A stretch of DNA of 33,917 nt from contig JAHBUB010000038.1 of NCBI GenBank assembly GCA_019638285.1, forward strand, positions 1 through 33,917, written 5' to 3'. The DNA comes from Cyclobacteriaceae bacterium. GTDB taxonomy: Bacteria; Bacteroidota; Bacteroidia; Cytophagales; Cyclobacteriaceae. Made by a program: the position numbers and the translations under genes. This document shows positions 8,118 to 24,902 of this stretch, in pieces (positions within the stretch are counted from its first letter, which is position 1; each line of letters starts with the position of its first letter). The notes below the pieces were generated by a model. The model was not told the DNA's origin and ran no database searches. It saw nothing but the letters and a program-made list of their open reading frames with translations.

Positions 8118-9338
8118 ATGCAAAGACTGATTAAGTTTCCTTTGGTGTTTCTTTTTATTGCTGCTCTTATAGGGCTTGCATTGCGATGGCATTATTATCA
8201 GCCAATGACAGGGTTTACCTATCCATATTGGCTACACGCTCATTCTCACCTCATGTTTCTCGGATGGGTATTTAATGCATTATCCATCGGATATGTGATT
8301 TGTTTTTTGCCTGAAGAATTGCAGAGTTGGTATAAAAAGCCTTTTTATATTATTAACCTCTTGGTGTTGGGTATGCTCATTACTTTCCCCATTCAGGGAT
8401 ATGGGGTGTACTCGATTGTCGTGTCAACCCTCCATACAATGGTTGTTATTGTGGTGAGCATTCGATTTTTTAAAGACACAAATAAAAAGAAAAATGATAA
8501 TGCGGTTTGGTTCGCCAGGACTTCATTGTTGTTCTTTATTATCTCTGCATTTGGGCCTTTTGTTGTAGGCGCTCTCGCTGCCAATGGACTCGGACAATCA
8601 GATGGGTATTACCTTTCAATATATTATTATTTGCATTTTCAATACAATGGGGTATTCACTTTTGGGATTTTTGCTTTCTTTTTTTATTTGTTGAAGCAGA
8701 AGGGGGTCTATATAGATTTACAGTATATAAAAAAATTCCGTTGGATATTATTTATTTCTTGCTTTCCAGCTTATGCGCTTTCCACACTTTGGACAAGTCC
8801 ACCTATGTTTGTTTATATACTGGCGCTGTTAGGCGCTTTGGGACAATTAATTGCATTGTATTATTTATTACAATCGATGAGGAGTCACTGGATCCAATTC
8901 ATAAGCTTGATTTCACCACTTACGCGGGTATTGTTGATTATTCCCTTAATTGCATTTGTGCTAAAATTAATTCTTCAGCTTTTTTCAGTTCATCCATCTG
9001 TGGCGATGCTGGCCTATGAAAGACGTTTTTATGTTATCGCTTATCTGCATTTGGTATTGATAGGTATGATTTCACTTTTTTTGATTGCATGGTACAACGA
9101 ACAGCGCTGGATTACTTTAAAGCGAATATATGTCTATCTCTTGATAATTGGTTTTGTCACCTCCGAGTTAGTTATGATCAGTGTAGGTCAATGGCCAGGC
9201 TTGTTTAATATTCAAGAATGGATGATCATTACCTCAATAATCCTGGTAATTGGAATTACTGGAATTGTCATAGGGGGAATTCGTATGACTAATAAAAGAT
9301 CACACTCCTATCAAAAAGTAAACTCTAAAGAACAATAG
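8118..9338 (+). CDS. Polytopic membrane protein with an HAHSH motif (NnrS or heme-copper subunit I-like)
   Basis: A 406-residue protein with about 11-12 transmembrane helices and no catalytic domain I can name. The most striking motif is LHAHSHLMFLGWVFNA, with His40, His42 and His44 near a membrane edge. Further in-membrane histidines lie in VSTLHTMVV, YYYLHFQYNGVFTFG and IAYLHLVLIGM. Repeated His-Gly/His-Asn patterns of this kind resemble heme-binding membrane proteins such as NnrS and subunit I of heme-copper oxidases, but the canonical CuB triad is not evident. Heme binding is an inference. Nearby genes for RIC, CtaA and copper uptake suggest a respiratory or nitric-oxide link. Its last 28 bases overlap the 3' end of the convergent TonB receptor gene. 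Confidence 0.6.
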   Translation: MQRLIKFPLVFLFIAALIGLALRWHYYQPMTGFTYPYWLHAHSHLMFLGWVFNALSIGYVICFLPEELQSWYKKPFYIINLLVLGMLITFPIQGYGVYSIVVSTLHTMVVIVVSIRFFKDTNKKKNDNAVWFARTSLLFFIISAFGPFVVGALAANGLGQSDGYYLSIYYYLHFQYNGVFTFGIFAFFFYLLKQKGVYIDLQYIKKFRWILFISCFPAYALSTLWTSPPMFVYILALLGALGQLIALYYLLQSMRSHWIQFISLISPLTRVLLIIPLIAFVLKLILQLFSVHPSVAMLAYERRFYVIAYLHLVLIGMISLFLIAWYNEQRWITLKRIYVYLLIIGFVTSELVMISVGQWPGLFNIQEWMIITSIILVIGITGIVIGGIRMTNKRSHSYQKVNSKEQ

Positions 9339-11298
9339 AAATTCCTGCCTGGTCTTGGAATGCCACCCCAGTCAAGGTGTTCTCGATAGTATTTGTTTGT
9401 TAAATTTTCTATTCCCAAACCGAAACTCCATTCTCCAATTTTACTATTCATACTATAACCGGTTCTTATGTTGAATATTGAGTACCCAGGCGTATTCTTT
9501 TCTCCAAAATTGGAGCTAACATGAGTTTGTGCAAAAGCACCTTCCCATTCCATTTGCCCACTGAGTTTGTTTTTTTTATATCTTAGGGAAGTAACATTTT
9601 TAAATGCTGGAATAAACGGGAGTGGTTCTCTATTAAAAGCTTCTGCGCGTGTTCCTTTAAAATTGGTTATCAGCTGAAGGTAGGAGGTGAGTGCAACCAG
9701 CGCAGCAAACTCCACACCCCAAAAATTGGCGTATGATATATTTTCATACACTTTTACGCCACTGGCACCCGGGGTCATTGCATCAACGTCAGTGTCTACA
9801 TAAGCCAGAATATAGTTGGGAGCGTGTTGATAGAACACAGTTCCAGTCATTTCTACCCAGCCGTTAAAGAATTCGACACCAAAATCGGAGGCAAGACTTT
9901 TTTCGGCTCTCAGGTATGGGTTACCAAGATAATCATGGTTATCCTGCCTGTTGAAGAGGTAGAATCCGAATAACTCAGCATTGGTGGGAAGGCGTTCCCC
10001 ATAGCCGCCATGAAGTGTGAATATAAAGTTGTTAAAAAATGGTTTACTTACGGTGACGTTAAATGATTTGGTGATCTTTTGGGAAGATGAATTGAATGAA
10101 GAGTAAAACACTTCTAGTTGATCTTTTCCAAAGCCCTCTTCAATTGTGGTGCTGGATGCGTCTAACCTTGCGTTTAGATTCACTTTTATGCGGTTGGGTA
10201 GTTTGATGTCATCTCCAACATACATTCCTGCTACGGTACGGTGTGAGGATGGCCAGGTTTGCATATACATAGATGTACCATCATTAGGATACATCACCAT
10301 TTCAGCCAGCACTCGATTATGATATAAATCAGTTCGGACCTGTAGTTTGTGATTTTTCTGATTCTTTATTTTAGCTTCAGCATAAGCGCCATAAGTGTTG
10401 CTCCATCCCGGCATATCCATGTGCATTAATACTTCGCGTTGAGAATCATCCATTTGATGGTAGACCTCGTTAGCGTATACTTTCGCTTCAAAGCTTCTCA
10501 GCCAACTCACATCTGTATGTCTGATATAAGTTAATGCATACATGGAGGCCCTCGCCTTACCCACGTCCATTGGTAAGGCTGGAAAGCCGATGTTTTTTCC
10601 TTCATCAATCAGAAAGTTGGCTTTTAGTGTATCCTTATTAACTCTCCATTTCCGGTAATTGAAAAGTTTATCTTTTCAAATTGTGAAAAATTGACGGTTT
10701 GTCCGTTCCCAGCTTTATAATTCTGATTTTTTCTATAAATGAAACTGGCGCGATAAGCACTATTTGGTTGTGAGAAATTGGCATCTGTAAAATAATTAAA
10801 ACCATTAGATACAGATTGATATCCGCCACCTGCTCTTCCTGATACTCTTTTTTGATTTAAGATCGGTTCAGCCAATCTTAAATTTAAGCCGCCTCCAATG
10901 GTACTCCCCATCGAGTTGCCGTTGGTACCCAAAGACGCATCAATACTTTTTAGATTTTGTGGCTCTACGTAAATGGTAACTGGATCCATCTTGTCGGTGC
11001 AGGCACTGAACATGCGCATACCGTCAATAGTTACGTTGATTTGTCCTGCTGACATTCCACGGATAACAGGTTCCTGACCATAAGCGCTTCTTCTAATGAG
11101 ATAGACTCCGTTCATGCGAGATAGAATATCTTCAGTATTGGCCGATTGATTGGCACGATAGAAATTCTGAAGTGTATCTGCCTCTGTTTGTATTGACTGT
11201 ATAACTACTTCAGATAGGATGCGCGTTTGCAATGTATCCTGTGCCTGTGCAAAGCTTGAAGTAATTATTATTAGGGATAAATAGAATAATATTCTCAT
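9311..11298 (-). pseudogene. TonB-dependent copper receptor (OprC-like), one-base frameshift
   Basis: Two frames together encode an outer-membrane TonB receptor of about 662 residues. The first (from 11298) has a signal peptide ending SFAQAQ, then a plug domain with PVIRGMSAGQINVTIDGMRM and FSACTDKMDPVT. The Met/Cys/MDP pattern resembles the 'HGACPNRMDPPT' signature of OprC-type copper receptors. The second (to 9311) is the beta-barrel and ends with an aromatic residue (LEFTF). The junction is at about 10649-10651: ITG is followed in the -1 frame by KWRVNKDTLKANF and GFPALPMDVG, the usual TonB sequence. One missing A in an A-run restores the frame. It is either a recent mutation or a sequencing/assembly error. 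It belongs to the operon that starts at 12628. Confidence 0.85.
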
Positions 11299-18093: not shown

Positions 18094-19146
18094 CTAATTC
18101 TTAATTGTGACATTAGCACCTTCAAAGAGATTAATGAGTCCATTGGTGATCACTAAATCACCTTCTTTTAATCCTGATTGTACTACAGCAATATTCTTTC
18201 TTCTTTCCACAATCTCAATATTTTGAAGTCTGGCCTTCCCCTGTTCCACCACGTATATCCGAGGTTGAACATTGGAACCTATAATGGCAGAGGCAGGGAT
18301 AATTAAATGTTGCGTATTGGGCGCCTCTTTGATCTGTACTTTACCGAACATCCCTGATTTAATTTTGAGATCTTGTGTGTTTTTCACAAGAAATTGAACA
18401 GGAAAAGTATTTGCCATATTGCCCTGGCTTCCTATTAGTGAAACCTTACCGGAAAGAGGTGTGGAAGTGTAAGTATCGGCCACAACCGTTACCGCATTGT
18501 TGATGTGAAATAAATTCAAATTATTTTCAGAAACATGGATGGTAAAACGTAGTGAAGTGATATCGGTCAATTGAAACAATGGAACCCCTGGCGCTGCGAA
18601 AGAACCTACTTCTGTCATCTTTGCTGTCACTATGGCTTCAAAGGGTGCGGTTACAACCGTACGACTAATTTGTTCCAACAAAGTACTGCGTTGCACCTGG
18701 GCAGATTTTAAACCAAGCTGGGCTTTTTCTAATTGTACTCCCTGGATAGCATCGGATGATGCTAATATGGAGTAACGTTTTACATCTGCTTCAAGCCCTT
18801 CTATCTGTACTTCTACAGATTGAAGTTGTAGCTTCAGCATCTTGTCATCCAGTTTAAGAAGGTTGTCACCTTTTTTTACTGGACTGCCGACATCAGCAAA
18901 CACTTGTACAACCTTGCCTTGAACATCAGCGCTCAATTTGGTTTCTTTATTGGGTTCAAAATTACCAGTGAAATATTTCACATCTTCATCTGCTCCATAC
19001 TTCACCACGTCTGCATTTACTTCAATGGCTTGCTCTTTGTCGTATGTATAAATGCGATTTTGAGCCATTTCCTTATTGCTTTTTAAACGCACCACCACAA
19101 TGACGATCAGTGCCAATGGGATAAGGATATAGAGAAACTTTTTCAT
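18094..19146 (-). CDS. RND membrane fusion protein (HlyD/AcrA-like)
   Basis: A 350-residue periplasmic adaptor. It has one N-terminal hydrophobic anchor (FLYILIPLALIVIVVV) and no lipobox. A biotinyl-lipoyl-like half (GKVVQVFADVGSPVKKGDNLLKLD) follows, then a helical hairpin about 95-160 of coiled-coil type. The returning half is TVVTAPFEAIVTAKMTEVGSFAAPG, and the beta-barrel and membrane-proximal domains run to the end (GLKEGDLVITNGLINLFEGANV). It bridges the RND pump and TolC. It lies 2 bases after TolC and 6 bases before the RND gene, so the three form one transcription unit. Confidence 0.93.
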   Translation of the reverse strand: MKKFLYILIPLALIVIVVVRLKSNKEMAQNRIYTYDKEQAIEVNADVVKYGADEDVKYFTGNFEPNKETKLSADVQGKVVQVFADVGSPVKKGDNLLKLDDKMLKLQLQSVEVQIEGLEADVKRYSILASSDAIQGVQLEKAQLGLKSAQVQRSTLLEQISRTVVTAPFEAIVTAKMTEVGSFAAPGVPLFQLTDITSLRFTIHVSENNLNLFHINNAVTVVADTYTSTPLSGKVSLIGSQGNMANTFPVQFLVKNTQDLKIKSGMFGKVQIKEAPNTQHLIIPASAIIGSNVQPRIYVVEQGKARLQNIEIVERRKNIAVVQSGLKEGDLVITNGLINLFEGANVTIKN

Positions 19147-19148
19147 TT

Positions 19149-20486
19149 TTATTTATTTAATAAGTTGCCAGTTATTTTTCTGAGGTCTAAATCTGCTTTC
19201 AGATAATCTACAATTGCCGATATATGTTGTTGTTGGGTTTCACTTAAGGTGTTATCAGCCATAAGCACATCATTAAGTGAAGCAAGTCCTTGATTTTGTT
19301 GGAGTAAGGTTTGATCGTAGATAGATTGAGCAAGTTTCGTTTGATCTAATGTTGTCTTGACCGATCGTTCGGCTACAGATCTTTGTTGTTTTGCAGTTTC
19401 AATCCCCAAGGAGGTTTGATCATTCAGTAAGCTTAATTGAAGATCGTTGTTACTTAGCTCCAATTTTTTCTGGTTTAACTTCCTGCTTGTGGTTGTGCCA
19501 TTAAACAATGGGTAAGAAAATTGAATTCCAGCAAAGCTTACTGGATAGAATTTCAAAAAATCGTTGGGGGTCTTATCATAGCCAAAACCAGTTTGCCCAT
19601 AGCTTCCGTACAATGACAATGAGGGTAGTCGTGAACTTTTTAGCGTATGCAATTCGCTGTTCAAAAGAAGATTTTGTTTTGTGATCAGGCGAAAGTCCAG
19701 TGAGGGGGTTTCTGTATATTCATTTATTGATGAGGGAGTAATACTGGTCTCCACTTCCAGATCTTGATCCAGACGGATGCCAATAGTTATTTTTAAAGCA
19801 TTGAGTACCTGCGTATACTTACTATAAACCTGTTCCCGCTGTGTGGTAAGTTGCTCTACTTGCAATTGAATTTTGGTTACATCAGTTTCTTTCGCCAGGA
19901 GTTGTTCTTTGAGCAATTGAATATTTCGCAAGAGCCTATTTGCATTGATTAGGTTTTCATCAATGAATGCAACCTGATAATTAAGTATTTGAGCGTTGTA
20001 ATACAGGTTGGTAATCTCATAAAGAATTTGCTCTTCTGTTTTTTGATACTGTAACAGGGTAAGTTCGGATGCTATTTTTGTGGTTTGAATAGCCCCATAC
20101 ACTTGTGGATTATATAAGGGCATTGTGAGTTGTAAATTGGCATTGATGTTATGGGGTACTCCAAATTGGACTTGTTTGAATTGGCCTTCGGGTCCACCAA
20201 AGACCGCTTGCGGCATAAACTGGTAAGGGAGGTCAATGAAATATTTATAGTCAGCATTGATACTTAATTTTGGTATGAGGTTGGCTTTGGCCTCTTTTAT
20301 TTTTTGTTGGCTAATCTCATTGTTGTTTTTGGCAATAAGCAAACTCTTGTTTTGCTGTTGTGCCGTGTCAAGACATTGCTGTAAAGACCACACTTGGGCA
20401 AAAGTTTCTTTGCTAAAAAGCAGGCCTGTGAGGATTATTAGTAATCCCACAAATCCTTTATTTAAAAAGTGAATATTCACTAACAT
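19149..20486 (-). CDS. TolC-family outer-membrane efflux protein
   Basis: A 445-residue outer-membrane factor. It begins with a signal peptide (FVGLLIILTGLLFSKETFAQ), then VWSLQQCLDTAQQQNKSLLIAKNN, the usual first helix of TolC proteins. Two repeats of long heptad-rich helices follow, with LSLYGSYGQTGFGYD and GIQFSYPLFNG typical of the second half. It provides the outer exit duct for the RND pump encoded just downstream. A perfect palindrome (AGTGAATATTCACT) covers codons 2-6, so the TetR-type operator reaches into the reading frame. If transcription starts near 20487 the leader is very short. A GTG at codon 13 is a possible alternative start but would lose the basic n-region. Confidence 0.93.
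   Translation of the reverse strand: MLVNIHFLNKGFVGLLIILTGLLFSKETFAQVWSLQQCLDTAQQQNKSLLIAKNNNEISQQKIKEAKANLIPKLSINADYKYFIDLPYQFMPQAVFGGPEGQFKQVQFGVPHNINANLQLTMPLYNPQVYGAIQTTKIASELTLLQYQKTEEQILYEITNLYYNAQILNYQVAFIDENLINANRLLRNIQLLKEQLLAKETDVTKIQLQVEQLTTQREQVYSKYTQVLNALKITIGIRLDQDLEVETSITPSSINEYTETPSLDFRLITKQNLLLNSELHTLKSSRLPSLSLYGSYGQTGFGYDKTPNDFLKFYPVSFAGIQFSYPLFNGTTTSRKLNQKKLELSNNDLQLSLLNDQTSLGIETAKQQRSVAERSVKTTLDQTKLAQSIYDQTLLQQNQGLASLNDVLMADNTLSETQQQHISAIVDYLKADLDLRKITGNLLNK
20468..20481. promoter_or_regulatory. TetR-type operator copy 2 (in the TolC gene start)
   Basis: AGTGAATATTCACT is a perfect 14-bp palindrome. It differs at one base from the operator at 24020-24033. It lies just downstream of a weak -7-like box (minus strand AAAATTTG, 20501-20494; -33-like TTTG at 20520-20517 with short 15-base spacing). 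A bound repressor would cover the first transcribed bases. Confidence 0.65.
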
Positions 20487-20501
20487 AATGATGCAAATTT
20501 T

Positions 20502-20786
20502 TTATTTTATTAATAACAAATCACTGTCTTTATTGGAAGTTAGCCAGTGCTTTACGTTTGGCATTATTTCCACAAAATCGCCTGATAAGAGTTTTTCTAT
20601 AACTCCTTCCTCATTTTCAAAAATCACTTCACCGGTAACACAAACGAGTAAGGCGGGTATTTTTGATTTATGTTCTTTCAATTGATTTCCACCCTTGATA
20701 TTGATGACGTTAACTCCTTCATTTGGGGAGAATATCTTTTTGGTCCCCAATGGCTTAACTTCCGTGAGTAATTCTTTTAGGTTCAT
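20502..20786 (-). CDS. Small cupin-domain protein
   Basis: A 94-residue protein with one cupin barrel. The two halves are visible as ALLVCVTGEVIFENEEG and KLLSGDFVEIMPNVKHWLTSNKDSDLLLIK; the first metal-binding motif (HxH..E) is largely missing, while one His remains in the second. The ATG at 20786 is chosen because the residues before it do not resemble the family and would overlap the transporter gene's end. Small cupins of this kind in Bacteroidota are often sensors or detoxifying enzymes, but no reaction can be assigned. It lies between the VIT1-like gene and TolC, 15 bases before the TolC start. Confidence 0.75.
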   Translation of the reverse strand: MNLKELLTEVKPLGTKKIFSPNEGVNVINIKGGNQLKEHKSKIPALLVCVTGEVIFENEEGVIEKLLSGDFVEIMPNVKHWLTSNKDSDLLLIK

Positions 20787-20835
20787 TTTTTGAAAGTTTA
20801 TTTTTATATATGGGATACAAGTTGAAATAGAGTAA

Positions 20836-21567
20836 CTAATACATAATTTTCCCCAAAAATTCTCCAACAAAATAGGCAACAAGCGCGGCCAAACCACCTA
20901 GTGTCACGGTTTCGCTAATTCCCTTTAAAATCCCTGATTGAGTAACAATAGACTTAAGGTATCCAATCAGAATAAAACCCAGTGCTGTTAAAGCACTCGA
21001 CCAAATAAATATATCTTGGATAGATGGAGAGAAGAAATCAAATACATATATGCTTAGTGGGATGATACCAATAAAAACAAATGACAAAAAGGTAACTAAT
21101 CCGGTTTGAAAAGGTGACTTTGTGTTTTCAATCAGGTTCAACTCATCCTTCATCATTTCGTTTACCCAACGATCTTTGTCCTGAGTGATTACATTCACTA
21201 CCTGACTTAGTAATGGTTCTTCAAATCCTTTCTTTCGATAAATATCTTCAATTTCTTCTCTTTCTATCTCCGGTAAATGCTCTACTTCCCAATACTCAAT
21301 ATTTTTATGCTTGGTATAGTTTTGTTTCTCACTTTTGGACGACATGTAGGCACCCACCGACATAGCAAATCCATCTGCAAAGAGATTGGCAAAACCTAAT
21401 ATCAATATCACAGAGCTATCCAAACCAGCACCCACGGCACCAGTAACTACAGCAAATGTGGTTACGCTGCCATCAATCCCACCATAAACAAATTCACCAA
21501 GATAGTCCTGATAGCTACCTAGGAATGAAGACCCTTCTTGATGAATATTTGATTCACTATTTTTCAT
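20836..21567 (-). CDS. VIT1/CCC1-family metal transporter
   Basis: A 243-residue membrane protein with about five transmembrane helices. The first is YLGEFVYGGIDGSVTTFAVVTGAVGAG, the standard VIT1/CCC1 opening with its Asp and Gly pairs. Next come ILGFANLFADGFAMSVGAYMSSKSE and a cytoplasmic loop (about 90-145) rich in Glu (EIEREEIEDIYRKKGF) that in VIT1 binds iron. The C-terminal helices end VTLGGLAALVAYFVGEFLG. The family moves Fe2+ or Mn2+ out of the cytoplasm. The neighbouring Dps gene supports a role in iron detoxification. Family firm; metal inferred. Confidence 0.88.
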   Translation of the reverse strand: MKNSESNIHQEGSSFLGSYQDYLGEFVYGGIDGSVTTFAVVTGAVGAGLDSSVILILGFANLFADGFAMSVGAYMSSKSEKQNYTKHKNIEYWEVEHLPEIEREEIEDIYRKKGFEEPLLSQVVNVITQDKDRWVNEMMKDELNLIENTKSPFQTGLVTFLSFVFIGIIPLSIYVFDFFSPSIQDIFIWSSALTALGFILIGYLKSIVTQSGILKGISETVTLGGLAALVAYFVGEFLGKIMY

Positions 21568-21606
21568 GGTGAACGATATTTAATGTTGCGTGGAGTGATT
21601 TTATTT

Positions 21607-22056
21607 TTATTCAAAATAGTTTTTGTAAGTAGAGAGATAAGATTTTATTTCTCCTAATGCTGCATTCTTATCGGTCTCGTCAAGATTTTCTATTTGATCT
21701 TTAAGGGGAAGCAAGTAGTTGTGTAATTGTTCATGAGATTCGCCAGTCATGGTGCATTTATTGAGTATGTCAGTAAATTCTAAAAGCAAGTTTTCTTTCA
21801 GCGGAGCAGCTGAAGAAGCAGGGTCGGCCAGAGCGACATCTACCATCTGTGCCATATTTTGAATTCCCTGCGTAGTTTCAATGTTGGCCATCCATTTATT
21901 TCCATTATCCAATTGTACTCCACCAGGAGCACCATGGGTGTCATGAACCTCCTCACCTTGGTTTTGATTGTCTTTGTGTTTCTCGGTTGAGCAACTGGTG
22001 AAGAAGAAAAGTAGGGCTACGAGAGATGCTGTGTAATAAAGAGTTGATTTTTTCAT
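21607..22056 (-). CDS. Putative lipoprotein of the TetR operon, unknown function
   Basis: A 149-residue protein with a lipoprotein signal peptide ending in a Cys (LLFFFTSCSTEKHKD). A short, polar, His-containing linker follows (EEVHDTHGAPGGVQLDNGNKW). The rest is helical: ETTQGIQNMAQMVD, LLEFTDILNKCTMTGESHEQLHNYLLPLKD and AALGEIKSYLSTYKNYF. The Cys-Thr-Met-Thr-Gly-Glu-Ser-His segment may bind a metal, as in some envelope metal-stress lipoproteins, but I do not recognise the family. It lies 16 bases after the 4-TM protein gene and 39 bases before the VIT1-like gene, in the same strand run as Dps and TetR. Function unknown. Confidence 0.7.
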   Translation of the reverse strand: MKKSTLYYTASLVALLFFFTSCSTEKHKDNQNQGEEVHDTHGAPGGVQLDNGNKWMANIETTQGIQNMAQMVDVALADPASSAAPLKENLLLEFTDILNKCTMTGESHEQLHNYLLPLKDQIENLDETDKNAALGEIKSYLSTYKNYFE

Positions 22057-22072
22057 TTTGTTAATTTTATAG

Positions 22073-22462
22073 TTATAGTTTATTTTTCTTTTTGGAAATA
22101 AGATACCAAGCTAAAACTGTAAAAGCTCCGGTTATACTTATTCTAAAAATCATTGCTTTTACTGTTTGTGCTTCATAGACCCCTCCAGAATTGATATGAA
22201 ATAGTAATCCAAGAAAACCGACAACCAGCATTACCGTGGTAATGGCGAGCAAGCGAGTAGTCCAGACTTTACCGTTGAATAAGCCATATGCACCAAACAG
22301 ATATAGAAATCCTGTCACGAAATTGGTGACGACAATAAACAGCACATAATTACCCTCCATCTCTCTAATGCCGAACAAATCAAAAATTACTGAGCTGCTC
22401 ATAAACAGTGTAGCGAGAGCAAACAAGGTAAGGACGATGGCAGCAAACTTTAGTAGTTTCAT
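22073..22462 (-). CDS. Four-helix membrane protein, unknown function
   Basis: A 129-residue protein with four predicted transmembrane helices: AAIVLTLFALATLFMSSSVIF, VLFIVVTNFVTGFLYLFGAYG, LLAITTVMLVVGFLGLLFH and ISITGAFTVLAWYLISKKK. It lacks charged catalytic motifs. The start codon overlaps the TetR stop by 4 bases, so translation is almost certainly coupled to the regulator. It could be a membrane partner or sensor of the regulator or part of a stress response; the sequence alone does not say. The next gene follows after 16 bases. Confidence 0.7.
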   Translation of the reverse strand: MKLLKFAAIVLTLFALATLFMSSSVIFDLFGIREMEGNYVLFIVVTNFVTGFLYLFGAYGLFNGKVWTTRLLAITTVMLVVGFLGLLFHINSGGVYEAQTVKAMIFRISITGAFTVLAWYLISKKKNKL

Positions 22463-23094
22463 AATGCTGATGCTTTAGGGTTCATTAAGGTGAATAGGTT
22501 GTTCATTAACTTATTTCCTTTCACTTTGAGATCAAATGCATATCCTGACATACGCCACTGCAACATGTGGAGCCTAAAACTCCCCATGAAGATGTGCAGG
22601 AGGTCTTCAGCTGGTAAGTCATTGGTAAATTGCTTTAGCTTTTGGCCTTCACGGATAATCTGTATTAAATGCTTTTTGGTAATTGCCATAATATTTGAGA
22701 TGGCTTTGTTAATTTCCTTACTGGCCTCCAGTAACCCATCCGAAAAGATAGCGATTAGGAAATGTGGCTTTTGTTTGAAAAATTCAAACTGACTGTTGAA
22801 TATCGCTTTAAGTTTTTCTTGTGGATTTTCAATATTTGAAATTGCATTTTCAATTCGCATATCCATATCCTTTGCAAGGTATTTCAACATAGTAATTACA
22901 ATTTCTTCTTTGCTTTTGAAGTGCCTGTAAAGGGCAGATTCACTAAACTCCATTTTGGCAGCCAGGTTCTTCGTAGTCAACCCCGCAAGACCTGATTGGG
23001 TAAGTATTTCACCTGCTGCCTCAATGATTTCCAGCTGCCTTTGTTTTATTTCCATCTTTGGTATTTGTAATTGATTAGACACTTGTTTCCTCAT
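22459..23094 (-). CDS. TetR/AcrR-family transcriptional repressor
   Basis: A 211-residue regulator. The N-terminal HTH is at about 18-65: RQLEIIEAAGEILTQSGLAG, then TTKNLAAKMEFSESALYRHFKSKEEIV. The remaining helices form the ligand-binding and dimerisation domain, with no recognisable ligand motif. It overlaps the Dps stop by 4 bases and the next gene start by 4 bases, so it is cotranscribed with them. Two near-identical 14-bp palindromes at the start of its own operon (24020-24033) and at the TolC start (20468-20481) are the obvious candidate operators. It probably represses its own operon and the RND pump, and is released by an unknown inducer. Confidence 0.92.
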   Translation of the reverse strand: MRKQVSNQLQIPKMEIKQRQLEIIEAAGEILTQSGLAGLTTKNLAAKMEFSESALYRHFKSKEEIVITMLKYLAKDMDMRIENAISNIENPQEKLKAIFNSQFEFFKQKPHFLIAIFSDGLLEASKEINKAISNIMAITKKHLIQIIREGQKLKQFTNDLPAEDLLHIFMGSFRLHMLQWRMSGYAFDLKVKGNKLMNNLFTLMNPKASAL

Positions 23095-23567
23095 TTATTA
23101 AGAAAGGAGGAATACATCCAAACTAACTTTTCCTGTGCCCGAAGGTAGTCGCTCATCAAGGCATTGGTTCCCTCATCGCCTGCTTCTCCGGCCAGTGTGA
23201 GCAGTTCGCGTTGAAGCGATATTATTGTTTTGAACGAATCAAGGATATTTCCAACAGCTTTCATTCCATCAGATACTTCTTTACTTTCTTTGATGGTCGA
23301 AACACTTTGATAATGGGTGTAATTATGATTGGGAGAAAATCCAAGAGTGAGTATTCTTTCGGCTATCTCATCTATTTTTAATAAAAGATCATTATAGAGC
23401 TCTTCGAATTTTAAATGTAGTTCAAAGAATTTTTCTCCCTTTATGTTCCAGTGGTATCCCCGCGTATTTTGATAAAAAAGTGAATAATTGGCCAGTAAAA
23501 CATTAAGTTTTTCTGCCATTATCTTTGCTTTATTGATATCCAAACCTATTGCATTTGTTGACTTCAT
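23091..23567 (-). CDS. dps: Dps-family DNA-binding/ferroxidase miniferritin
   Basis: A 158-residue four-helix protein with the Dps signature: TRGYHWNIKGEKFFELHLKFEELYNDLLLKIDEIAERI. His39, His51, Glu55 and Asp66 match the intersubunit ferroxidase ligands. Dps oxidises Fe2+ with H2O2, stores iron and shields DNA. The N-terminus is short, so DNA binding through a lysine tail is uncertain. It lies between the 4-TM HxH gene and the TetR gene, with a 4-base overlap to the latter. Being under a local TetR rather than OxyR or Fur is uncommon and is inferred from operon structure. Confidence 0.92.
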   Translation of the reverse strand: MKSTNAIGLDINKAKIMAEKLNVLLANYSLFYQNTRGYHWNIKGEKFFELHLKFEELYNDLLLKIDEIAERILTLGFSPNHNYTHYQSVSTIKESKEVSDGMKAVGNILDSFKTIISLQRELLTLAGEAGDEGTNALMSDYLRAQEKLVWMYSSFLNK

Positions 23568-23588
23568 GATTCTTATAGTGTTTTTGAA

Positions 23589-24002
23589 TTAAACATTTAT
23601 TGATTTCATTTTATAAAAGGCAACCCCAAGCCATAGCACAGAGGCTGTCATAGCAATTGCACCGATTAACACGAAAATAGGAGAGGCGCCCAGATAGACT
23701 TCTGCTAAAATTCCAATTGGCATGAGTAATCCGATTAATGCGAGCCACGAGATGGTTTTGGCATTTGTCAGGTTAGATTGAAAATGTAAAAGCAAATAGC
23801 CTATTAGAATATTAAGAAAAGCGAAGAGATTGCCATGTACGTGGGCAAGTCGTGTTTCGAAGTGCTTTCCAGAAGAGTAAGAAGCCACCCATTCCTCTTT
23901 GCCGGGGGCGAAATCCCTCAGGTAAATTAATAGGAATCCATAAGCCATAAATGCTCCCATTGTTAGAAATCCGATGGCAATATTGTTTTTACCTATTTTC
24001 AT
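23589..24002 (-). CDS. Four-helix membrane protein with an HxHG motif, unknown function
   Basis: A 137-residue protein with four predicted transmembrane helices, starting IAIGFLTMGAFMAYGFLLIYL. The most conserved-looking part is HFETRLAHVHGNLFAFLNILIGYLLLHF, with His47, His54 and His56 next to a membrane helix. The HVHGN pattern recalls small heme- or quinone-associated membrane proteins, and loosely the HAHSH motif of the protein at 8118-9338. It is the first gene of the TetR operon, downstream of a -33/-7 promoter and a palindrome that would overlap the transcription start. No reaction can be assigned. Heme binding is a guess from the histidines. Confidence 0.65.
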   Translation of the reverse strand: MKIGKNNIAIGFLTMGAFMAYGFLLIYLRDFAPGKEEWVASYSSGKHFETRLAHVHGNLFAFLNILIGYLLLHFQSNLTNAKTISWLALIGLLMPIGILAEVYLGASPIFVLIGAIAMTASVLWLGVAFYKMKSINV

Positions 24003-24019
24003 GTCCTTTTGATAAAGTT

Positions 24020-24033
24020 AGTGAATGTTCACT
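24020..24033. promoter_or_regulatory. TetR-type operator copy 1
   Basis: AGTGAATGTTCACT has perfect 6-bp arms (AGTGAA/TTCACT). It lies 17 bases upstream of the HxHG gene start codon and just downstream of the -7 box. It would cover the transcription start, a typical repressor site. The other copy is at 20468-20481. Confidence 0.7.
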
Positions 24034-24042
24034 GACAATACA

Positions 24043-24075
24043 TAAACATATTAAAAAAGGTTCTATTTTGACAAA
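24043..24075 (-). promoter_or_regulatory. Candidate promoter of the TetR/Dps operon
   Basis: On the minus strand a TTTG (24075-24072) lies 21 bases upstream of TATGTTTA (24050-24043), one base from the TAnnTTTG consensus. Predicted start is near 24036, giving a leader of about 34 bases that contains the operator. Confidence 0.5.
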
Positions 24076-24365: not shown

Positions 24366-24902
24366 ATGGATAAGAAGAGGATAGCCGTTTTAGTTGGCAG
24401 TTTACGCAAGGAGTCTTACAATCGTAGGATTGCTAATGAATTAATCCGTTTAGCGCCTGATTCCCTCGAACTTCAGATTTTGGAAATAGGAGATCTACCT
24501 CTTTACAATGAGGATTTGGAAGAACATGCACCCTTACCCTGGGTAAAGTTTAGAGATAAGTTGAAGGGATATGATGGAGTGCTATTTGTTACCCCGGAAT
24601 ACAACCGCTCTATTCCTGGTGTCCTAAAAAATGCCATTGACGTTGGATCAAGACCCAGCGGTAAGAGCGTTTGGAAAGGTAAACCAGGCGCAGTGATAAG
24701 TGTTACCACGGGTAGATTGGGTGCGTTTGGGGCAAACCATATTTTACGGCAGTCCATGGTATTTTTGGACGTCTCCATAATGCAACAACCCGAAGCTTAC
24801 ATTAGTAATGTAGGCGAACTATTTGATGCAAACAGTCGCGTTTCAGGCAAAACTGAAATCCTTTTAAAGGACTTTATGGAATCGTATGTGAAGTGGATAT
24901 AA
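24366..24902 (+). CDS. NADPH-dependent FMN reductase (ChrR/azoreductase-like)
   Basis: A 178-residue flavodoxin-like protein. The FMN phosphate loop is VLVGSLRKESYNRRIANEL; the second binding loop is VTPEYNRSIPGVLKNAIDVGSRP; the third is SVTTGRLGAFGANHILRQ. The family reduces quinones, azo dyes, chromate or FMN with NAD(P)H in the cytoplasm and protects against redox stress. Length and motifs are normal. It is monocistronic and divergent from the TetR/Dps operon, but the sequence does not prove co-regulation. The 3' flank has no obvious terminator. Confidence 0.9.
   Translation: MDKKRIAVLVGSLRKESYNRRIANELIRLAPDSLELQILEIGDLPLYNEDLEEHAPLPWVKFRDKLKGYDGVLFVTPEYNRSIPGVLKNAIDVGSRPSGKSVWKGKPGAVISVTTGRLGAFGANHILRQSMVFLDVSIMQQPEAYISNVGELFDANSRVSGKTEILLKDFMESYVKWI

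Follow-up and report, generated by a model that had tools for sequence, protein, structure and literature searches.

A candidate two-operator TetR switch on an RND efflux operon of a Cyclobacteriaceae bacterium, with the second operator predicted inside the tolC coding start

The 33,917-nucleotide contig JAHBUB010000038.1 of a Cyclobacteriaceae bacterium (NCBI GenBank assembly GCA_019638285.1, positions 1 to 33,917; hereafter the window) carries on its minus strand a TetR-family regulator gene, tetR, followed by genes for a TolC-like outer membrane protein (tolC), a membrane fusion protein (MFP) and an RND transporter. Two near-identical palindromes lie in this gene run, one (O1) in front of its first gene and one (O2) at tolC, raising the question of whether the linked TetR reads both of them and what role the second one plays. 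The analysis points to what appears to be a real and conserved two-operator TetR switch on an RND efflux operon, a variant of a known design. The features on which this reading rests are the following.

24017..24036, minus strand: putative operator O1, core 24020-24033, reading AGTGAACATTCACT on the minus strand; extended form GTCAGTGAACATTCACTAAC
24036..24043, minus strand: position of the -7 box, ATGTATTG in the window, degenerate, with three mismatches
20465..20484, minus strand: putative operator O2, core 20468-20481 (AGTGAATATTCACT), overlapping the tolC start
20495..20503, minus strand: A-rich element AAAAAATTT, 13 bases before O2, a spacing kept in relatives
22459..23094, minus strand: tetR, TetR-family regulator with recognition helix region SESALYRHFKSKEEIV; N-terminal helix-turn-helix Pfam TetR_N (PF00440) 42.1 bits, cut-off 24; ligand domain TetR_C_4 36.6 bits, cut-off 21
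19149..20486, minus strand: tolC, TolC-like outer membrane efflux protein, Pfam OEP 154.8 bits; ATG at 20486-20484

The palindromes and the linked tetR gene

A preliminary description of this DNA had reported two 14-base words differing by one base and no third copy in the window. Direct inspection of the sequence confirmed both words at 24020-24033 (also given as AGTGAATGTTCACT) and 20468-20481, and the remaining matches in the window all had three mismatches. The genome-wide search that had been suggested found the pattern AGTGAAYRTTCACT at these two places only (3.98 Mb, 85 contigs), and reversed AGTGAAYRTTCACT, used as a control, had no match in the whole genome. At up to two mismatches the genome has 32 places and the control 49, and no place differs by a single base, so only the two exact sites stand above background. 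The extended form GTTAGTRAAYRTTYACTAAC matched O1 with one mismatch and O2 with three. At up to three mismatches the extended pattern occurred at three places in total versus six for the control, and the third place (C41:1869-1888), considered as a further regulon member, was judged a chance match.

Relatives of the regulator were detected in 36 of 295 genomes of the family (E ≤1e-15) and in 36 of 295 genomes of the class (E ≤1e-25), the genome of the window being included in each count, and in named records from Flavobacterium psychrophilum, F. celericrescens, F. proteolyticum and several Bacteroidota metagenome-assembled genomes. The 79 related loci analysed, from which the window was excluded, comprised 52 larger loci (35 + 17, the 17 being the first of 80 named-record loci, L068-L084) and 27 short loci (L153-L179) that extend 1.5 kb either side of tetR; some of the others stop at contig ends. 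Seven more class matches without a stored locus lie outside this sample. Five other TetR paralogues were detected in the genome at E ≤0.001, all at ≤31% identity, and a plasmid search for the regulator returned remote TetR proteins only, all under 60% identity, with 31% for the match listed first.

The promoter regions of these relatives were compared, as had also been suggested, and the site was found to be kept beside tetR. It lay within 1.5 kb of tetR in 8, 30 and 61 of the 79 loci at up to zero, one and two mismatches, respectively. The same scan with 59 permuted half-site palindromes found, on average, 0, 0.12 and 4.1 such loci and at most 0, 2 and 25; the 25 belong to AGTAAG, which closely resembles the true half-site. 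In a set of 20 selected genomes, four of the six with a close TetR carry exact sites, and every one of these is at the tetR locus; the exact word was absent from 13 of the 14 same-genus genomes without a close TetR, and in the 14th (G241) a single copy lies inside an unrelated reading frame. Where genes for an HxHG-motif protein and Dps stand ahead of tetR (L033, L035, L036, L037, L157), O1 is found ahead of them and not of tetR. On the evidence of sequence, the regulator thus has a palindrome at its own operon that is kept in relatives, as a TetR repressor would. Such sites follow tetR across genera and families, and the linked TetR very probably reads both palindromes, as the preliminary description had proposed.

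In the window O1 lies 17 bases 5' of the ATG of the HxHG gene. Among the related loci, a site at up to two mismatches was found upstream of tetR in 53 of 79, and in 32 of these 53 TTTG stands exactly two bases before it (-6 to -3), whereas the background is 0.9% (flank unfiltered). The longer motif TAnnTTTG, at up to one mismatch, precedes the site in 35 of the 53, the background again being 0.9% (flank unfiltered). According to the accessible parts of two reports, TAnnTTTG at -12 to -5 is the -7 box of Flavobacterium sigma-A (PMC9723704, PMC6847099), which by simple arithmetic would put the transcription start close to base 3 of O1. Since a box of this kind lies two bases upstream in 35 of 53 loci, O1 should cover the transcription start. 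A scan with a sigma-70 type model, which is not a model for Bacteroidota promoters, returned 10 promoter-like sites versus 12.9 in shuffles.

The site at the tolC start

The ATG of tolC occupies 20486-20484 and the core of the second site 20481-20468, so O2 covers tolC codons 2-6 and does not lie upstream of the gene; the letters over it read ATG TTA GTG AAT ATT CAC. Fifty of the related loci carry a tolC-like gene after tetR. A site around the start of the tolC frame was found in 3, 7, 24 and 40 of these 50 at up to zero, one, two and three mismatches, respectively, and the permuted controls gave means of 0, 0, 0.08 and 1.17 and maxima of 0, 0, 3 and 17. Two other tolC-like genes in the genome (25% and 24% identity; E ≤1e-10) have no such site. 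A strict O2 pattern was found in 3 of 296 genomes across the phylum, the genome of the window included; this pattern is too narrow to gauge spread because it requires the ATG to adjoin the operator.

The codons under O2 were analysed in those 40 rows, out of 80 with the window counted, that have AAWTT-N13 ending in GTT together with at most three mismatches. The results showed that codon 6 is CAC in 36 of the 40 rows and CAT in none, with CAT 96 times and CAC 68 times elsewhere in the same genes, a codon choice that argues for selection on the DNA at O2. The tolC ATG adjoins TTA in 28 rows; in 10 rows it lies one codon further upstream, in 1 row two codons, and in 1 row it was not found. O2 nevertheless keeps its 13-base distance to the A-rich element while the ATG shifts by one or two codons, the position of AAAAAATTT following that of the operator and not that of the ATG; the element could be either a translation signal or a hidden promoter element. 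A GCG variant of O2 occurs in 2 of the 40 rows (L037, L155), only where O1 also has GCG, and in L062 the tolC start carries GTTAGTAATTACTAAC, encoding different residues. We conclude that O2 is most likely kept as DNA.

Several points weigh against a TetR that reads two such operators. The permuted controls overstate significance because related loci are not independent, and the genomes surveyed and the named records may overlap. The site at up to two mismatches is missing within 1.5 kb of tetR in 18 of the 79 loci and upstream of tetR in 26, and two genomes with a close TetR (G293, G184) lack an exact site and have one-mismatch sites at the tetR locus. The box ATGTATTG of the window speaks against a strong promoter at exactly that register. 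At the tolC start, 10 of the 50 loci have no site at up to three mismatches; all 10 have a TolC of at most 45% identity, yet three loci at 43-44% do carry the site. L163, counted among the 40, has its site off the usual place and may be a chance match. Allowing three mismatches in itself biases codon 6 towards CAC, and rows were selected partly by their AAWTT spacing and GTT, although not by the A run at -22 to -19. The accessible part of a study of F. johnsoniae describes A-rich stretches at -14 to -11 as a general translation signal (PMC6847099), and AAAAAATTT may be an ordinary Bacteroidetes translation signal and nothing more. Part of the conservation of the encoded MLVNIH could be a protein-level constraint, and in L068 and L069 the GCG of O1 has no counterpart in O2. 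Preferring a roadblock at O2 to the block of an internal promoter is a guess.

Variant palindromes were observed at some loci. A Cloacimonadota relative (L083, 32% identity) has GTTAGTGAATATTAACT just upstream of its tetR, hinting that the operator class may extend beyond Bacteroidota. Palindromes shorter by two central bases are present before tetR in L079 and L080 (GTAAGTAATTACTTAC) and at tolC in L062, a possible change of operator spacing. One of the two other tolC-like genes in the genome of the window follows a TetR gene of its own (L187), and this pair has a different inverted repeat, GGAAACTTTGG-N6-CCAAAGTTTCC (L187:782-809), before its TetR gene, as seen by eye; inspection by eye revealed no inverted repeat at the tolC start of that pair.

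Alternative readings of the two sites

The preliminary description had placed each palindrome at the predicted transcription start of one of two separate units, together forming a regulon of Dps, iron transport, efflux and lipid A editing. Besides tetR and tolC, the genes concerned are the following.

23589..24002, minus strand: HxHG small membrane protein, 137 amino acids, family without assignment (open reading frame, alignment of relatives)
23091..23567, minus strand: dps, Dps/ferritin-like protein, Pfam Ferritin 90.5 bits
22073..22462, minus strand: 4TM membrane protein, family without assignment
21607..22056, minus strand: small lipoprotein with a conserved CTMxG...HxxLH motif, family without assignment
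20836..21567, minus strand: VIT1-family transporter, Pfam VIT1 213 bits
20502..20786, minus strand: small cupin, Pfam Cupin_2 20.1 bits, under the cut-off of 27.2; the start at 20786 is our choice, matching the lengths of relatives (88-95 amino acids)
18094..19146, minus strand: membrane fusion protein, Pfam HlyD_D23 58.2 bits
14986..18087, minus strand: RND transporter, Pfam ACR_tran 799.9 bits
13966..14967, minus strand: LpxR-like outer membrane protein, Pfam LpxR 200 bits

The order on the minus strand is thus HxHG, Dps, TetR, 4TM, lipoprotein, VIT1, cupin, TolC, MFP, RND and LpxR, and the reported 4-base overlaps of tetR with dps on one side and the 4TM gene on the other are borne out by the coordinates. 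Each palindrome does lie 5' of a gene set, and BmeR5 of Bacteroides fragilis acts on the bmeR5-bmeC5 intergenic region, as far as the accessible text of its report tells (PMC4790292), so a start near tolC is possible. The genes nearly touch across the supposed border, however: only 15 bases separate the cupin gene from tolC, which makes a single long operon equally likely as two units. Moreover, the second site lies inside tolC, and TAnnTTTG is not conserved before it, the base after TTT of AAAAAATTT being G in 14 of 39 rows. Because no -7 box is conserved there, a block of elongating polymerase is likelier than a second promoter. The claim that a palindrome marks the transcription start of each of two units was therefore not upheld.

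The gene content of the 79 loci also bears on this point. Same-strand neighbours (E ≤1e-8, -2.5 to +9 kb of tetR) were TolC in 47 loci, RND in 31, MFP in 31, the lipoprotein in 25, the 4TM protein in 23, HxHG in 21, the cupin in 12, Dps in 7, VIT1 in 1 and LpxR in 0. The pump-gene counts are lower bounds, since 27 loci reach no further than 1.5 kb from tetR and others are cut short by contig ends; RND was found in 30 of the 52 larger loci, some of which are truncated in this way. The sole VIT1 neighbour is a remote one (25% identity, some 7 kb from tetR), and VIT1 at the position it has in the window was not seen in any of the 79 loci. LpxR was found on neither strand of the 79 loci, of which the short ones could not show it. 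The recurring core is tetR-tolC-MFP-RND, often accompanied by genes for the HxHG protein, the 4TM protein, the lipoprotein and the cupin. The scarcity of Dps, VIT1 and LpxR implies that the iron theme is a local trait of few genomes and not the purpose of the system, and it is doubtful that iron handling is part of the physiological meaning here. A regulon that joins iron storage and lipid A editing to efflux is weakly supported by the relatives, and two units with a promoter of their own at each palindrome, making up one such regulon, are an unlikely arrangement.

A second alternative holds that O2 is an RNA hairpin or a conserved signal-peptide start and that TetR acts on O1 only. O2 does lie within coding sequence; the 111-base start region of the window folds better than shuffled versions of it (z -2.78; 3 of 200 as good), and 41 of 50 loci share an LV/LA motif at the N-terminus of TolC. 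Of 18 distinct O2 sequences, however, 10 have a standard pair 4-11 and 7 a standard pair 1-14, and a hairpin at O2 was rejected because pairing within it is not fully conserved. A protein-level explanation has to contend with the codon 6 result described above, and both versions with the fact that O2 is the same word as O1. This alternative is considered improbable.

The palindromes might also be nucleoid-occlusion sites of the SlmA type rather than regulatory operators. The likeness lies in the DNA-reading helix (SESALYRHF here, SEAALYRHF in SlmA, within the aligned helix-turn-helix stretch LTTKNLAAKMEFSESALYRHF) and in the palindrome core, and SlmA is the best NCBIfam model for the regulator. 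ALYRHF-type helices are common among TetR proteins, so the resemblance of helix and site is suggestive only. The score of 60.5 bits is half of the cut-off of 120. The SlmA site is given as GTGAGTACTCAC in the accessible part of its report (PMC3116907), and it differs from GTGAATATTCAC at two symmetric positions. The same source describes 50 SlmA sites along the Escherichia coli genome (PMC3116907), whereas the genome analysed here has two sites only, in regulatory position and both in the regulator's own operon, making nucleoid occlusion very improbable. Finally, that the palindromes lie beside tetR by chance, a notion favoured by two-mismatch matches being no commoner than the control in the genome, is practically refuted by the lack of any exact control match in the genome and by the recurrence in relatives as compared with permuted controls.

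Proposed mechanism, known designs and accessory genes

In the model that we infer, TetR would be the autorepressor of the RND efflux operon, binding a palindrome of about 20 bp (GTTAGTGAATATTCACTAAC type) at two places. At O1 it would cover the transcription start of the whole operon and block initiation. At O2, over the first tolC codons, it would most likely halt RNA polymerase arriving by read-through from upstream, or else block a weak internal promoter; for the roadblock role we have a slight preference. The pump genes would thereby be held more tightly than the genes ahead of them, and Dps, VIT1 and the other genes placed between the two operators would be under O1 control. Both sites would be freed by an inducer that may be a hydrophobic or acyl-type compound. 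Tentatively, the design may hold across Bacteroidota: a second TetR operator would be joined to the start codon of the gene for the outer-membrane channel, the N-terminal codons of tolC would be constrained as a DNA-binding sequence, front genes (initiation at O1) and pump (elongation at O2) would be gated to different degrees, and inserted genes such as Dps and VIT1 would have intermediate expression.

The analysis provides a concrete candidate sequence for the operator of efflux operons of a kind that recurs in Bacteroidota, and an example of a membrane-channel gene whose opening codons seem to serve as a repressor site as well. Two questions become testable: whether an operator in a coding region sets the ratio of pump parts to the accessory genes ahead, and what signal induces the genes for the HxHG protein, the 4TM protein and the lipoprotein.

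The closest design is that of BmeR5 and bmeABC5, likewise a TetR repressor beside an RND operon in Bacteroidota. In the window, tetR is linked on the same strand to tolC-MFP-RND, and a candidate operator lies between regulator and outer-membrane gene, as it does in 40 of the 50 loci at up to three mismatches. BmeC is presumably the outer-membrane part of BmeABC5, and the intergenic site of BmeR5 is taken as the counterpart of the place of O2. As described in the accessible text, BmeR5 binds this region and represses bmeABC5 (PMC4790292), with neither a second operator at the front of the operon nor extra genes, and that text spells out no operator sequence; the two are likened by design, not by sequence. 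AcrR, which represses acrAB, and CmeR, which binds inverted repeats in the pump promoter, are likewise local TetR repressors of RND pumps according to the descriptions available, whereas here there are two putative operators, one of them within the coding start of the outer-membrane channel gene. TetR roadblocks downstream of the transcription start have been proposed for RolR and AtsR of Corynebacterium glutamicum, as the accessible part of the report tells (PMC9210681); these concern other operons and another genus, and the sites described there are not fused to a start codon. FadR/YsiA shares the ligand-domain family match TetR_C_4, but the NCBIfam FadR model scored 52.7 bits against a cut-off of 200, and no fatty-acid gene was recognised in the operon. 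A literature search, mostly outside subscription journals, found no description of the operator or of a coding-start operator in tolC.

Three accessory proteins, HxHG, 4TM and the lipoprotein, had no convincing family match (Pfam for all three; NCBIfam). Family and PDB-sequence searches with HxHG and the lipoprotein yielded nothing usable, and the 4TM protein had weak, mixed Pfam matches only, the best being MARVEL in 9 of 21 members (E 0.00079). HxHG is 72-86% identical to 18 aligned relatives (18 of 20), and the 4TM protein and the lipoprotein are less similar to theirs. As the best conserved of the three accessory proteins aligned, HxHG deserves attention.

Divergent to O1, with about 330 bases between them, lies an FMN reductase gene (24366-24902, plus strand, Pfam FMN_red). 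It has no relative on either strand among the 79 related loci, which makes it improbable that O1 generally serves this gene. Farther along the minus strand, a TonB receptor plug and barrel are found in two adjoining frames (9311-10570 and 10624-11298), possibly a split or broken receptor gene.

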